Of a stretch of 64,000 bases of DNA, positions 12,847 to 61,801 are shown piece after piece. Source of the DNA: an uncultured Acidobacteriaceae bacterium (GTDB lineage Bacteria; Acidobacteriota; Terriglobia; Terriglobales; Acidobacteriaceae); NCBI GenBank assembly GCA_903842065.1, contig CAIMKZ010000074.1, positions 62,001 to 126,000 on the forward strand, given 5' to 3'. Below the pieces are notes generated by a model. That model saw nothing but the letters and a program-made list of their open reading frames with translations, ran no database searches and was not told the DNA's origin. Position 1 is the stretch's first letter. The number at the start of each line of letters is the position of its first letter. The position numbers and the translations under genes are program-made.

Positions 12847-13755
12847 CTACATCTTGCTGAACAGACTGTTGGTGGCCGACTCAAGCTGGGCAATCAAATT
12901 GATCAGCGCCGTCTGCCTGGTCTCAGCCAGCGCAAGCTGCGTCGAAATCGTCGGCAGATCGGCCTGGATCAGATTCGTCTGCGCTGTGATCAGCTGCGTC
13001 TTCTCACTTTCGATCGACTGGCTCGCAGCCGTAAGCTGATTGATCGATCCGTCGACCGTCACGCGCTGCTGCGACACATAGTTGAGCGCGGTATTCAGAT
13101 TCGCCGTATCCTGGGCAGCCTGCTTGATGTCGACCGTGCCGCTTGAGTAGTCGGCGATGAGCGCGTTCAGCGCGCCAAAGACGCTGTTGCCGCCCGAACC
13201 GAGAAAAATCTGGTTGCCGGGAACATTCAACTGAATCTTCTGCCCATTCGGCAACTCAATGTTGTTCACGCCCGAGTCACCCGAGTAGCTGGTCACGCCC
13301 GGAGAAGCTGCGTTCGATGTGGTAAATGGAACCGTGTCGGTCTTTGAGCCGGCAAACAGATACTGTCCCTGGTAGCTGGTGTTGGCCAGCGCCTGCACCT
13401 CCGACAAAATGCCCGCAAGCTGGCTGCTCACCGACTTCACGTTGCTCTCGCTCATCGTGCCGTTGTTGGCGCTCATGGCCAGAGAAATCGCTGTAGTCAA
13501 CTGCGATACCACGCTGCCCAGCGCCGAATCGGATACCTGCAACTGCCCCGTCACGCTCGCCGCGGTCTCGGTAAACGAGTCGTCCCGCTGAATCTGGCTC
13601 GCCAGAAGCACATTCCGCCCGGCGCCCACTGGATTGTCGCTCGGCGCGTTGATACTCACTCCGCTCGAAACCTGGGCGCTCAACTTCTGGATGCTTACCT
13701 GTGTCTGATTAAGCGAACCGGCAAGATTGGAGATGTAAAAAGGATTCACGCGCAT
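12847..13755 (-). CDS. flgL: Flagellar hook-filament junction protein FlgL
   Basis: A 302-residue protein. The N-terminus MRVNPFYISNLAGSLNQTQVSIQKLSAQVSSG and the C-terminal helix (ALAETRQTALINLIAQLESA) have the flagellin-like D0/D1 pattern of FlgL, the second junction protein between hook and filament. Length is typical. ATG at 13755. The AGGAG before it (13764-13768, minus strand) is part of a heptamer repeat that bounds the spacer to flgK. It is the last gene of the long flagellar series. No flagellin gene follows in this window. Confidence 0.92.
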   Translation of the reverse strand: MRVNPFYISNLAGSLNQTQVSIQKLSAQVSSGVSINAPSDNPVGAGRNVLLASQIQRDDSFTETAASVTGQLQVSDSALGSVVSQLTTAISLAMSANNGTMSESNVKSVSSQLAGILSEVQALANTSYQGQYLFAGSKTDTVPFTTSNAASPGVTSYSGDSGVNNIELPNGQKIQLNVPGNQIFLGSGGNSVFGALNALIADYSSGTVDIKQAAQDTANLNTALNYVSQQRVTVDGSINQLTAASQSIESEKTQLITAQTNLIQADLPTISTQLALAETRQTALINLIAQLESATNSLFSKM

Positions 13756-13762
13756 AATTTTC

Positions 13763-13949
13763 AGCTCCTAGCTATTAACTTTTAGCTGTTAGCTCCTTGC
13801 TAGCTCGCTGGCGCAGCGGCGATTGAGAAAATCATTCACACTTCTCTCCGCCTGCTAACTCCTGCGCTCTCTCAAACAACACCAGCTGTTTTTCGTGGCC
13901 TCAACACTTGATCGGGCACAAATGAGCTAACAGCTAATAGCTAGCAGCT
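13763..13949. repeat. Heptamer-bounded spacer between flgK and flgL (AGCTNNT type)
   Basis: The left arm is an array of 7-bp units, AGCTNNT, at 13763-13804 (AGCTCCT, AGCTATT, AACTTTT, AGCTGTT, AGCTCCT and a degenerate sixth). The right arm at 13922-13949 has four units in the opposite orientation, ANNAGCT. They include a perfect 14-bp inverted repeat (13782-13795 and 13924-13937) separated by 128 nt. The middle part has no ORF with a plausible product. The unit nearest flgL supplies the AGGAG ribosome-binding site. Confidence 0.8.
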
Positions 13950-13956
13950 GCATTTC

Positions 13957-15369
13957 CTACACCGTCGTCTGCTGGCCCAGGTTCAGTGCCGAGCTGATGA
14001 TCCGGTTCAGAATGTTAAATACCTGCGACGCCGCCTGATACGAGGTCTCAAGTGTCGATAACGCCGACGCCTCGTCGTTCAAATTCACTCCCGATAATGC
14101 GTCCCGCTGCGACTGAAGCTGCGTCACCGAAGCCGTCTGTGCCGTATTCTCCGCTTTCACCTCTGAGACCGCCGCGCCAAGGCTCGATACAAAGTTTGAA
14201 AAGTAGTTGATCGGCGTTTGTCCGTTCACCACCGACCCGGTCATCATCCCGGCCATCGCCGTAGCATTCGAGTTGTTGCCCGTTCCCGAGCCCGGCGAAG
14301 CCGCCGCGATCCGGTTCGGATCGCTCATCACCACCGTCATCGACATGGCCGCCCCGGCCATCGCCGTAGGCTCCCGGAAGATGTTGAGCGGATCGGCAGC
14401 CGTGCCCGTCGCACCATTCAGATCGGTCCCCGCGTTGTTCTGCGCATTCACTGCGGTCGAGAGACTGTAGGCCAGTTGATCGAGCGCGCCGAGCGCCGTC
14501 GGCACATCCCCGTCTCGCGCCGTCAGATATCCGCCCAGTTGCCCGCCTCCCGAAGTCAGCCCCGAAGTAACGTCGCTTCCGTTCAGGAAGAAATGAGTCA
14601 CTCCGCCGACGTTTCCACCCGATAGAGCCACATTCTGGTTTCCCGCAACCAGAACCTGGCCCGACGTCGTCGTTACCGTCAGCCCGTTGTTCTCGGTTGT
14701 GATCTGGTTGATGCCGACCAGCTCAGAAAGCTGGCTCAACGCCTGCTGGCGCTGATCTTCAAGCGGGCCCGCGTCGGCAGTGGGCGACTCGGCCTGTATC
14801 CGTTGATTGAGCCCGGCGATCGTCGACGTGAGCGCATTCACCTGGCTCGCCACACCCGCCGCCGCCTGGTCCAGAGCCGACCTCTGCGAATTCAGGCTCC
14901 GCGCCGCGCCTGAGATAGCGCCCGCCAAAGTCGAGGCCGAAGACAGTACCTGCTGGCGAAGCGCGCTGTTTGTCGGACTCGCCTCAAGGGATGCAAACGA
15001 GTTGAAGAAGCTCGTGATCCCCGCGCCGATGTCGCCTGTGCTCGAAGTCTCCGAAGTGACCGGAAATACCGACTCGATGTTGTTCAACGCCGATAGCCGC
15101 GCGCTCGATGCAGAAGCCAACTGCTTCTGCTGCGCCAGCCGCTCCTCAAGAACCCGGTCGCGCTGCGACGTATAGCCGGCCGACGTCACACCGTCGCCCA
15201 GCAATCTGCCACTCACCTGAATCGTGCCGTTCTGCCGCCACTCCGGCCGCTCGGCCGTGTACCCGGCAGTGTTGGCGTTGGCCACATTGTTGGCCACCAC
15301 GCTCAACGCCGCCTGATCGGCATCGAGCGCGCCAGAGATGATCCCGAATGCGGAGTTAATGCTCCCCAC
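13957..15369 (-). CDS. flgK: Flagellar hook-associated protein 1 FlgK
   Basis: A 470-residue protein. It starts MGSINSAFGIISGALDADQAALSVVANNVANANTAGYTAE, the rod/hook N-terminal motif (NNVANANTAGY) shared by FlgB/C/E/F/G/K. It ends with a conserved helix (NLNDEASALSTLETSYQAASQVFNILNRII), as FlgK does. It forms the first ring between hook and filament. The ATG at 15369 overlaps the preceding flgN-like gene by 14 bp. A repeat-bounded spacer of 201 bp separates it from flgL. Confidence 0.93.
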   Translation of the reverse strand: MGSINSAFGIISGALDADQAALSVVANNVANANTAGYTAERPEWRQNGTIQVSGRLLGDGVTSAGYTSQRDRVLEERLAQQKQLASASSARLSALNNIESVFPVTSETSSTGDIGAGITSFFNSFASLEASPTNSALRQQVLSSASTLAGAISGAARSLNSQRSALDQAAAGVASQVNALTSTIAGLNQRIQAESPTADAGPLEDQRQQALSQLSELVGINQITTENNGLTVTTTSGQVLVAGNQNVALSGGNVGGVTHFFLNGSDVTSGLTSGGGQLGGYLTARDGDVPTALGALDQLAYSLSTAVNAQNNAGTDLNGATGTAADPLNIFREPTAMAGAAMSMTVVMSDPNRIAAASPGSGTGNNSNATAMAGMMTGSVVNGQTPINYFSNFVSSLGAAVSEVKAENTAQTASVTQLQSQRDALSGVNLNDEASALSTLETSYQAASQVFNILNRIISSALNLGQQTTV

Positions 15370-18829: not shown

Positions 18830-19618
18830 TTAGCGCGTCATGTTGTTTACCTGCGAGTACATGTCATCGGCGGCTTTAATCACCTTCGAGTTCGACTCAT
18901 ACGCCCGCTGCGCCAGAACCATCTGAACAAACTCGGTCACCACATCCACGTTCGAGTTTTCGAGATACCCCTGTTGCAGTGTGCCCAGTCCCTCGCTGCC
19001 TCCGGGATTGCCCAGCACCGCGTCGCCCGAACTCAGTGTCGAAGCCAGCAGGTTCGACCCCATGCTCGCCAGCCCCCCCGGATTGGGAAAGGTAGCCAGT
19101 TGCAGCTGCCCCAGCGGCGAGGGGTTCTGCTGCCCGGGCAGCGTCGCGTTCACCACCCCATACTGGGTGATCGTCACCGCCGTCGCATTCGGAGGAATCG
19201 TGATCGTCGGAATCAGCGGGTCGCCGTCCGTCGTCACGATGCTTCCCTGGCTGTTCAGGTGAAACTGCCCGGCCCGCGTGTAAGCTATGGTTCCGTCGGG
19301 CCGCTGCACCTGGAAAAACCCCTGGCCCTCAATCGCCACATCGAGCGGGTTGTTGGTCTGGTTCAGCTCGCCCTGCATCGAGATGATCTCGGTGGCCGCC
19401 GAGCGCGTGCCCAGGCCGATCTGCAACCCGGCCGAGACCGTCGACTGGCTCTGCGCGGCGCCCGGCGTCACAAGATTCTGGTAGATCATGTCCTGAAACT
19501 GAAGCCGCATCTGCCGGAAGCCGGTCGTAGACGCATTGGCCAGATTGTTGGCGATCGTGTCCAGATTCAACTGCTCGGCGCTCATCCCGCTGGCCGCTGT
19601 GTACAAAGCTCGAATCAT
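18830..19618 (-). CDS. flgG: Flagellar distal rod protein FlgG
   Basis: A 262-residue protein that is nearly canonical throughout: MIRALYTAASGMSAEQLNLDTIANNLANASTTGFR at the start, NPLDVAIEGQGFFQVQRPDGTIAYTRAGQF in the middle and LGTLQQGYLENSNVDVVTEFVQMVLAQRAYESNSKVIKAADDM at the end. Forms the distal rod. ATG at 19618 with GGAGGTGCACCC directly before. A 232-bp spacer bounded by AGTCCCT heptamers precedes it. Confidence 0.97.
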   Translation of the reverse strand: MIRALYTAASGMSAEQLNLDTIANNLANASTTGFRQMRLQFQDMIYQNLVTPGAAQSQSTVSAGLQIGLGTRSAATEIISMQGELNQTNNPLDVAIEGQGFFQVQRPDGTIAYTRAGQFHLNSQGSIVTTDGDPLIPTITIPPNATAVTITQYGVVNATLPGQQNPSPLGQLQLATFPNPGGLASMGSNLLASTLSSGDAVLGNPGGSEGLGTLQQGYLENSNVDVVTEFVQMVLAQRAYESNSKVIKAADDMYSQVNNMTR

Positions 19619-19636
19619 GGGTGCACCTCCAGTGCA

Positions 19637-19846
19637 CAGGGACTAGGGACTAGGGCCGGTATATTGCCCGTCGAGACTTCTATTGACTCGCTTTGAAAAC
19701 AACTCATACTTTCTCCGTTCACCGCATACGTGCTCACTTCCCGTAGCCCGATTCATTCGTTTTCAAGCCGGAACATCCTGCATTTCTCTTAGCTTCCTTT
19801 TCCCATCTCCATCCGTCACTCCTAGTCCCTCAGTCCCTAGTCCCTG
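19637..19846. repeat. Heptamer-bounded spacer between flgF and flgG (AGTCCCT type)
   Basis: The left arm is AGGGACT-AGGGACT-AGGGCCG (19638-19658). The right arm has AGTCCCT at 19824-19830, 19832-19838 and 19839-19845. A perfect 15-bp inverted repeat links them (19637-19651 with 19832-19846; 180 nt apart). The middle contains no recognisable gene. Confidence 0.8.
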
Positions 19847-19850
19847 CCTC

Positions 19851-20588
19851 TTACACCTTGCTCAACTCCTCGGCTGCAAACTTGTTCATCTCGGTGTGAA
19901 AGACCGTCAGGGCCTTCTGCATCATCTCGGCCTGGCGCTGCATCAGCACCAGATCGAGCGTGCCGCGGATTACGTCCTGGTTGGCCCCTTCGAGAGCGCC
20001 CTGCTCCACCACGGCATCCTTCGCCGCCACCGGCGTCGCTCCCGCCGGAGCCACGTAGCGGTTCGTGCCCTCGGCCAAGAGCTCTGTGTTCGCTGGAAAT
20101 GTAAAGAGACCCACCGAACCGGCCAGTCCGCCGTCAACTGAGATCGCCCCGTCGCCCCGGATCGAGACCTCGCCCGGAGGAACCGCAACCGGCTTGCCGG
20201 CAGGAGACAAAACCGCCTCGCCCGTCCGCGTCACCAGATGCCCGGTGGACTCGCGATGGAAGCTGCCGTCCCGCGTGTAGCGGATGCCGTTCGATGTCTC
20301 GACCGCGAAGTATGCCTGGCCTTCGATGGCCAGATCGAGTGGATTGCCTGTTCTCTGGATCTCGCCCTGAGCCTGGCTGAGGCTGGTGCCGCCCACTACG
20401 CCATAGTCGTTCACGGCGCGGCCCATCTGCGATCCGGCCGAGCCCTCGCCGAGCAGCACCGCCCGAAAGTATGGGCGCTCGGCCCGGTAGCCCGCCGTCT
20501 GCGTGTTGGCCAGATTGGCCGCGGCGGCGTCGAGCGCGTCGGAGCGCGCTACCAGACCCGCCATAGCCGCGTAGTATCCGCTGTCCAT
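19851..20588 (-). CDS. flgF: Flagellar proximal rod protein FlgF
   Basis: A 245-residue member of the FlgE/F/G family. N-terminus MDSGYYAAMAGLVARSDALDAAAANLANTQTAGYRAE, then NPLDLAIEGQAYFAVETSNGIRYTRDGSFHRES, and a C-terminal helix ending LVLMQRQAEMMQKALTVFHTEMNKFAAEEL. It is more divergent than the neighbouring FlgG, which is typical of FlgF. ATG at 20588 with AGGGG about 8 nt before. Confidence 0.88.
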   Translation of the reverse strand: MDSGYYAAMAGLVARSDALDAAAANLANTQTAGYRAERPYFRAVLLGEGSAGSQMGRAVNDYGVVGGTSLSQAQGEIQRTGNPLDLAIEGQAYFAVETSNGIRYTRDGSFHRESTGHLVTRTGEAVLSPAGKPVAVPPGEVSIRGDGAISVDGGLAGSVGLFTFPANTELLAEGTNRYVAPAGATPVAAKDAVVEQGALEGANQDVIRGTLDLVLMQRQAEMMQKALTVFHTEMNKFAAEELSKV

Positions 20589-57729: not shown

Positions 57730-57772
57730 TGTACTTCTCCTTCAGGATCGCGCTCAGTCTCTGACCACTGAC

Positions 57773-57799
57773 AACTGTTCCCTTAGTCCCTCAGTCCCT
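57773..57799. repeat. Heptamer array between yebC and the PagL-like gene
   Basis: AACTGTTCCCTTAGTCCCT (57773-57791) is identical, in reverse complement, to part of the flhA-flhB spacer arm (27633-27651). TAGTCCCTCAGTCCCT (57784-57799) is identical to part of the flgF-flgG spacer (19823-19838). Only one arm is evident at this site; the yebC terminator follows at once. Confidence 0.75.
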
Positions 57800-57801
57800 G
57801 A

Positions 57802-57838
57802 CAAGAAGGACCGCCCAAACCGGGCGGCCCTTCTTGTA
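57802..57838 (-). terminator. Terminator of yebC
   Basis: ACAAGAAGG-x-CCGCCC pairs with GGGCGG-xx-CTTCTTGT (57802-57838), a long stem with a short AAACC loop, 18 bases beyond the yebC stop on the minus strand. Confidence 0.8.
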
Positions 57839-57855
57839 GGAAGTATCGCCCGGCA

Positions 57856-61501: not shown

Positions 61502-61581
61502 CCAAGGTCGGCCGGGTCCAGATTCACTCGTGACCCACTTCTCAACCAACCACATCTAAACCAACCTAAGGAACTGGGTGG

Positions 61582-61606
61582 CCCAGGTCTCGATTCGAGA
61601 CCTGGG
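61582..61606. repeat. Dispersed palindrome, copy 5
   Basis: A perfect 11-bp stem CCCAGGTCTCG (61582-61592) and CGAGACCTGGG (61596-61606) with ATT loop, in the context CTGGGTGG...GAGATCAACCC. It is the most regular copy in the window. Confidence 0.8.
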
Positions 61607-61656
61607 AGAGATCAACCCTCAACCAACCACTTTTGCACCATCCCCAAAACTGGGTG

Positions 61657-61683
61657 CCCCAGGTCTCGATCCAGAGACCCGGG
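61657..61683. repeat. Dispersed palindrome, copy 6
   Basis: CCCCAGGTCTC (61657-61667) with GAGACCCGGG (61674-61683), in the context CTGGGTG...GAAACACCACCC. It lies 75 bp after copy 5 in tandem orientation. The sequences between the copies also repeat (AACCAACCAC). Confidence 0.75.
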
Positions 61684-61801
61684 AAACACCACCCCTAATT
61701 AAATCCCTGCCATCCTGAGCAAAGGCCACCCGCCCCCCAACCCCATCATGTGAAAACCCCATACGCAAAATGGGAAATTTTTCGGTATTATTAGATATAG
61801 T

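Follow-up and report, generated by a model that had tools for sequence, protein, structure and literature searches.

Short palindromic intergenic sequences, some of them between cistrons, are familiar in bacteria as REP/BIME, Correia and MITE-like elements. Reports of heptanucleotide repeats in bacteria go back decades, but no function has been agreed on. Among these, the cyanobacterial STRRs are the closest kind to the arrays described here, sharing tandem intergenic 7-bp units that can form hairpins in operon gaps. For STRR hairpins such as that of the hupS-hupL intergenic region, an increase in transcript stability or translational coupling has been proposed (PMC2670836), and in Nostoc 7120 the repeats csR1.1 (ttgtcagttgtcagttgtca) and csR1.3 (ccactgactactgac) are listed for one gap (PMC2408588). 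In the P6b region of the Nostoc tRNA-Leu group I intron, heptanucleotide repeat motifs of two classes form a stem-loop (PMC4476775). TAACTGA direct repeats occur in marine Beggiatoaceae, cyanobacteria and Bacteroidetes (MacGregor 2015, PMC4679880); their arrays lie directly 5' of start codons, also in ribosomal-protein operons, and no self-folding is predicted for these direct repeats, one indirect repeat being present in the main genome (PMC4679880). A literature search found no paper joining a heptanucleotide repeat with Acidobacteria, the nearest being PMC4679880, PMC2670836 and PMC2408588.

The window analysed here is a stretch of 64,000 nucleotides (contig C74, 62001-126000) from the genome of a Terracidiphilus-like acidobacterium, whose FlgL shares at most 72% identity with relatives labelled Acidobacteriaceae or Terracidiphilus. 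The features of its flgK-flgL junction are as follows.

13957-15369, minus strand: flgK (Pfam FlgK_D1, E 1e-46)
13756-13956, minus strand: flgK-flgL intercistronic gap, 201 nt
13922-13950, minus strand: 5' arm in the mRNA, GCAGCTGCTAGCTATTAGCTGTTAGCTC, directly 3' of the flgK stop (from sequence and fold)
13806-13921, minus strand: spacer (loop region) of the gap, single-copy in the genome, starting TTTGTGC just inside the 5' arm
13763-13805, minus strand: 3' arm in the mRNA, AGCTAGCAAGGAGCTAACAGCTAAAAGTTAATAGCTAGGAGCT, directly 5' of the flgL start (from sequence and fold)
13765-13769, minus strand: flgL Shine-Dalgarno AGGAG, located in the final heptad of the 3' arm and predicted to pair with the 5' arm
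12847-13755, minus strand: flgL, a flagellin-family hook-associated protein 3 (Pfam Flagellin_N); relatives keep the flgK-flgL order

As the first-pass annotation of this DNA had described, inverted 7-bp arrays bracket the gap, with minor deviations of the units: AGCT-type heptads occupy 13763-13805, where AACT replaces AGCT in one unit and the final unit is off phase, and reverse-complement heptads occupy 13925-13949 at the far end. The perfect 14-bp inverted repeat reported there (TTAGCTGTTAGCTC at 13782-13795, GAGCTAACAGCTAA at 13924-13937) is present with its 128 nt between. The minus-strand mRNA is predicted to form a single long hairpin that closes 6 nt past the flgK stop and 6 nt ahead of the flgL ATG, the fold of 13740-13960 reaching -86.9 kcal/mol (z -4.92; 0 of 200 shuffles equally stable) and pairing the AGGAG as part of the stem. 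This predicted fold, together with the genome-wide pattern, supports the earlier suggestion of arms that pair in the mRNA with the flgL start taking part. The TTTGTGC on the inner side of the 5' arm is a weakly recurrent motif. A minority of hairpins have TTYGTGC where the 5' arm meets the loop (ribosomal-protein gaps of L158 and L208-L227, and 13806-13921 of the window), and GTGC lies within 5 nt of the array end in 41 of 89 occurrences.

Three further hairpins lie in the window, at junctions of flgF/flgG-type genes, of flhB and flhA, and of fliQ and fliR.

29691-29788, minus strand: second AGCT-family hairpin, in the gap between fliQ (29789-30058) and fliR (28920-29690); arms 29695-29717 and 29757-29785; -44.5 kcal/mol, with a nearly perfect predicted stem of about 29 bp
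19619-19850, minus strand: hairpin of the AGGGANY family, separating two rod genes of flgE/F/G type (18830-19618 and 19851-20588); arms 19637-19655 and 19821-19847; -75.8 kcal/mol
27615-27818, minus strand: AGGGANY-family hairpin in the gap between flhB (27819-28919) and flhA (25509-27614); arms about 27784-27812 and 27631-27650; -63.7 kcal/mol

Judged by sequence and context, the hairpins are not intrinsic terminators with a GC-rich stem and U tract, the stems lying inside codirectional operons, in gaps of 98-232 nt, with a start codon after them. At gathering score, Rfam 15 matched a tRNA as its sole hit in the window and none of the heptamer hairpins, and at the ribosomal-protein loci it returned just sub-threshold miRNA-precursor models, which fit any long hairpin. 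Two other repeat regions lie in the window. Between a YebC-family and a PagL-like gene (57730-57855), a strong GC-rich terminator-like hairpin is followed by a mixed AGGGANY/CAGTKRY heptamer array with no clear partner, and at 61535-61684 a 77-bp unit stands in two tandem copies (CTCAACCAACCACA...CTGGGTGCCCCAGGTCTCGATCCAGAGACCCGGG...) and recurs in further intergenic regions of the genome (C5:114007-114555, C5:141444-142502), REP/BIME-type in appearance.

The flgK-flgL arrays belong to a genome-wide set that is real, widespread and orderly. The search of the genome and its relatives that had been suggested at first pass succeeded in both: the three-unit pattern AGCTNNTAGCTNNTAGCT has 94 + 97 = 191 matches in the 4.09-Mb genome against 0 + 0 for the same pattern read backwards, a number far in excess of chance, and such arrays are found widely in Acidobacteriaceae. 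Across 464 kb of the genome, 26 period-7 arrays compare with 1-7 for periods 5, 8, 10 and 11; at the strictest threshold the numbers are 11 and 0. Context was counted over 864 kb of the genome, read in stretches, with genes called outside the ribosomal-protein comparison by a home-made hexamer caller that leaves some starts approximate. There, 71 AGCT-type array matches comprise 1 within a gene and 70 between genes, the latter making up 36 spacer entries (one gap entered twice); 32 of the 36 have codirectional flanking genes, where 58% would be expected (P = 1.6e-4; P = 0.026 without the ribosomal contig). Read outward from the nearest gene, the units are AGCTNYT in 56 of the 70 arrays, several of the other 14 being palindromic and scored on both strands, and the median distance from array to gene boundary is 6 nt, against 31 with random placement.

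A stricter form of the pattern, AGCTNYTAGCTNYTAGCT, occurs in 37 of 40 genomes sampled from the window's genus, in 184 of 300 Acidobacteriaceae genomes (55 of 79 genera) and in 25 of 297 genomes across the phylum, Acidobacteriaceae included; most of these 25 are Acidobacteriaceae, the matches outside the family being few and of low count. The phenomenon does extend past Acidobacteriaceae, because the S3-L16 gap of L267, from another acidobacterial family, holds a hairpin of heptamers whose core differs again (GGTAGCC...GACTACTGG). The flgK-flgL gap itself is variable. The annotation had named orthologous gaps free of arrays, combined with no genome-wide excess of inverted pairs, as what would refute its reading; among the nearest relatives, 27 of 36 different flgK-flgL gaps are indeed free of period-7 arrays, a point against a coupling role, yet inverted pairs are strongly enriched. 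In the relative L062 this gap is short and scar-like, as if from a collapsed hairpin.

The arrays are not a peculiarity of the flagellar operon; they are densest in the ribosomal-protein operon: the richest stretch, contig C48:1-20000, carries by its translations the end of tuf and then the S10-spc-alpha operon, most gaps of which contain an inward-facing array pair. In the array scan of this region, the reversed-sequence control is invalid for the AGGGA core. The genus has dozens of heptamer hairpins, chiefly between ribosomal-protein genes. The comparison covered 21 operons of the genus, with ribosomal operons taken from 20 relatives and their gaps extracted, a few starts being placed 6-21 nt too far downstream. 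A gap that spans only 10-57 nt in one species can reach 85-200 nt and carry arrays in another; the insert of the longer gaps sits between the stop codon and the Shine-Dalgarno. The array families, all of period 7 and assigned via simple motif counts, are AGCTNYY, CAGGGRY/AGGGANY, CAGTKRY, AGTTCNY and CGTG/CACG. Among 299 ribosomal-protein gaps of 70-330 nt, period 7 marks the stop side of 57.5% and the start side of 36.8%, any other period from 4 to 12 reaching at most 1.3% of gap ends. Where both ends carry arrays, the two arms are of the same family in 80 of 87 gaps; permutation gives a mean of 38.1 and a maximum of 52, and the stricter permutations reach at most 61 within the same gene gap and 70 within the same genome. 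Some gaps depart from this arrangement. The L22-S3 gap, 19-57 nt in most relatives, is widened in L208 and L212 by inserts with repeated ...TTCGCTCAGGATGACAGG..., unlike the heptamer hairpins, and the L2-S19 gaps of L218, L219 and L224 and the L14-L24 gap of L222 are short and scar-like, as from collapsed hairpins, keeping one or two heptads that adjoin the stop or the Shine-Dalgarno.

The S3-L16 gap shows what is retained between species. It carries arrays in 31 of 33 cases in the genus, in 11 of 29 in other Acidobacteriaceae genera and in 1 of 20 in other acidobacterial families, where its median length is 21 nt. A tree of 14 ribosomal-protein genes requires at least 10 changes of array family at this gap across 20 species, a number not below that for shuffled labels (mean 9.5), and the families cluster on the tree no more than shuffled labels do. 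In the sister species L208 and L209, an AGCT hairpin stands against a CAGGG hairpin between nearly identical flanks. Because the loops of different-family hairpins are mostly unrelated (mean z 0.82) and those of same-family hairpins often homologous (mean z 3.10), it is whole hairpins that are replaced, loop included, and a switching of arms around a conserved loop is ruled out, the loops changing along with the arms. Since relatives keep the hairpin in unrelated repeat sequences, the paired structure seems to be what is conserved, and the structural reading is a strong one.

Predicted folds close a stem across 86 of the 87 array-bearing gaps, with a median of 32 pairs. By this stem a median gap length of 129 nt becomes a median path of 18 nt from stop to start outside the stem, the 5' flank having a median of 2.5 nt. 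Of the 87 folds, 47 leave the Shine-Dalgarno free, 17 hold it in the stem against the 5' arm and 7 pair it elsewhere, and in 16 none was found; its sequestration is thus no general rule, 17 of 71 scored hairpins showing it against 47 of 71 in which it is free. Over the 864 kb, arrays precede 19 of 286 codirectional starts but only 1 of 240 divergent starts (P = 1e-4), and 12 of 264 codirectional starts when the ribosomal contig is left out (P = 0.003). Their scarcity at divergent genes fits a transcribed intercistronic RNA; avoidance of promoters predicts the same pattern. Outside the ribosomal operon, arrays follow the stop at 6 of 176 tail-to-tail junctions, mostly unpaired, and at 12 of 264 codirectional ones, which is about equal.

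At the level of single base pairs the RNA signal is weak to modest. The arms hold no excess of G.U over A.C (123 versus 115 mismatches), which rules out base-by-base RNA selection of that form, and fold z-scores are no better on the sense strand (-3.39) than on the antisense strand (-3.76); the lower sense-strand energies probably reflect base composition. Same-family arms match slightly better within their own gap than between gaps (17.55 versus 16.03, P = 0.001), and homologous hairpins have fewer broken pairs (164 versus 184 +/- 5 permuted) and more double compensations (20 versus 13 +/- 2.9 permuted). The multi-register pairing that the repeats allow would weaken such covariation signals.

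The reading to which somewhat better than an even chance is given is that the hairpins are transcribed between cistrons and loop out the spacer, keeping the stop and the next ribosome-binding site close so that the cistrons stay translationally coupled. Each arm consists of 7-nt units that keep a constant core and leave one or two positions free, and because of this composition the arms can pair in several registers, at about six of every seven positions and with N.N mismatches. The 5' arm begins a few nucleotides past the stop and the 3' arm ends just before, or over, the next Shine-Dalgarno; because the arms adjoin these two sites, the stem would set aside about 30 to 150 nt of spacer as a loop and leave about 18 nt between stop and start instead of about 130. 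A terminating ribosome may then sit on the foot of the stem and open it, coupling the neighbouring cistrons. In a minority that includes flgL, the Shine-Dalgarno lies within the predicted stem, so that ribosomes translating the gene before it may be needed for access. The arrays, their positions and gene context, the pairing of families, the predicted folds and the replacement of hairpins are observations; that the hairpins form in the cell and have this coupling role is inferred, the looped-out spacer being the best candidate among several functional readings.

A neutral or selfish origin is rather unlikely but weighs most among the other explanations: insertion, or slippage with template switching, would keep making inverted heptamer arrays, which survive where they do least harm, between a stop and the next Shine-Dalgarno. 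The matching of the arms could indeed stem from how hairpins arise and not from selection, and the fast turnover, one species having a hairpin at a gap where another has none, the replacement of whole hairpins with their loops, the weakness of fine covariation and the collapsed-arm-like scars (L2-S19 in L224, flgK-flgL in L062) all agree with it. Near-fixation at S3-L16 through so many replacements is hard to explain, however, unless the hairpin is retained; no multi-copy spacer or transposase-like unit was found, and tail-to-tail gaps, which ought to tolerate arrays no less, hold no more of them. The annotation had left a choice between a translation- or mRNA-level module and a decayed mobile element. 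The first is still the best reading, whereas a mobile element or MITE is rejected: although presence and absence at orthologous gaps is a MITE-like trait, only the arms match elsewhere in the genome, the flgK-flgL spacer is single-copy, and the loops of different families at one gap differ.

Set against translational coupling, a role in mRNA processing or stability is quite improbable. The long imperfect stems would be sites for RNase III or a similar enzyme, or blocks to exonucleases, that set the ratio of neighbouring proteins; the median of 32 predicted pairs is long enough for RNase III-type recognition, and the products of the flanking genes (ribosomal proteins, hook-associated proteins, export-gate subunits) need set ratios. 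A processing site, however, needs no start 2-3 nt past the stop codon, and N.N mismatches about every 7 bp interrupt long perfect duplexes. Far less probable still is an RNA- or DNA-binding protein that reads the heptads, which has been suggested for the TAACTGA repeats. Such a protein would be suited by cores that are conserved next to degenerate positions, but AGCT, CAGGG, CAGTK, AGTTC and CGTG swap at one gap with the arrangement kept, so that one protein would have to read all these unrelated cores, and the two arms differ in sequence as RNA; a protein reading a single core is unlikely given this replacement. A cassette of stop codons in all frames, with TAG every 7 nt, cannot be general because the CAGGG-family 5' arms carry, by their sequence, no stops.

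Coupling through a looped-out spacer remains the preferred reading, and if a translational role is true, the hairpins would offer a general means of coupling genes that lie far apart in an operon. Matched heptamer pairs sit in the most constrained operon of the cell, and a function as RNA hairpin is directly testable because many replicate gaps and species are at hand, together with at least 10 natural replacements at one gap in which pairing was kept. A bolder proposal, put forward as doubtful in its entirety, is that exchangeable heptamer hairpin cassettes punctuate Acidobacteriaceae operons exactly between stop and Shine-Dalgarno, that structure alone is selected while an unknown process swaps unrelated whole cassettes, and that the stems set the coupling, and with it the ratios of the proteins, in essential operons, the ribosomal and flagellar ones among them.

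TAACTGA is the reverse complement of TCAGTTA and so falls in the acidobacterial CAGTT family, csR1.1 and csR1.3 of Nostoc 7120 resemble two arms of the CAGTK family, and in a comparison made with CAGTT-type units, these match Nostoc csR1.1 and also occur in arrays on Nostoc and Kovacikia plasmids. In arrangement the acidobacterial arrays differ from the TAACTGA direct repeats by the inverted pairing of their arms, seen in 80 of 87 gaps. The two repeat sides of the Nostoc P6b element pair as well, but within an intron, whereas the acidobacterial arrays lie in operon gaps. REP/BIME, Correia and MITE-like elements are copies of one sequence, in contrast to a single-copy spacer between arms of unrelated families. 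In 150 kb of cyanobacterial plasmids, period-7 arrays were found, some as inverted pairs. As far as those 150 kb allow a comparison, the acidobacterial hairpins would differ from the STRRs in that paired arms systematically frame the gap, adjoin stop and start directly, occupy most gaps of the ribosomal-protein operon and are replaced by another family with both arms matching and pairing kept.
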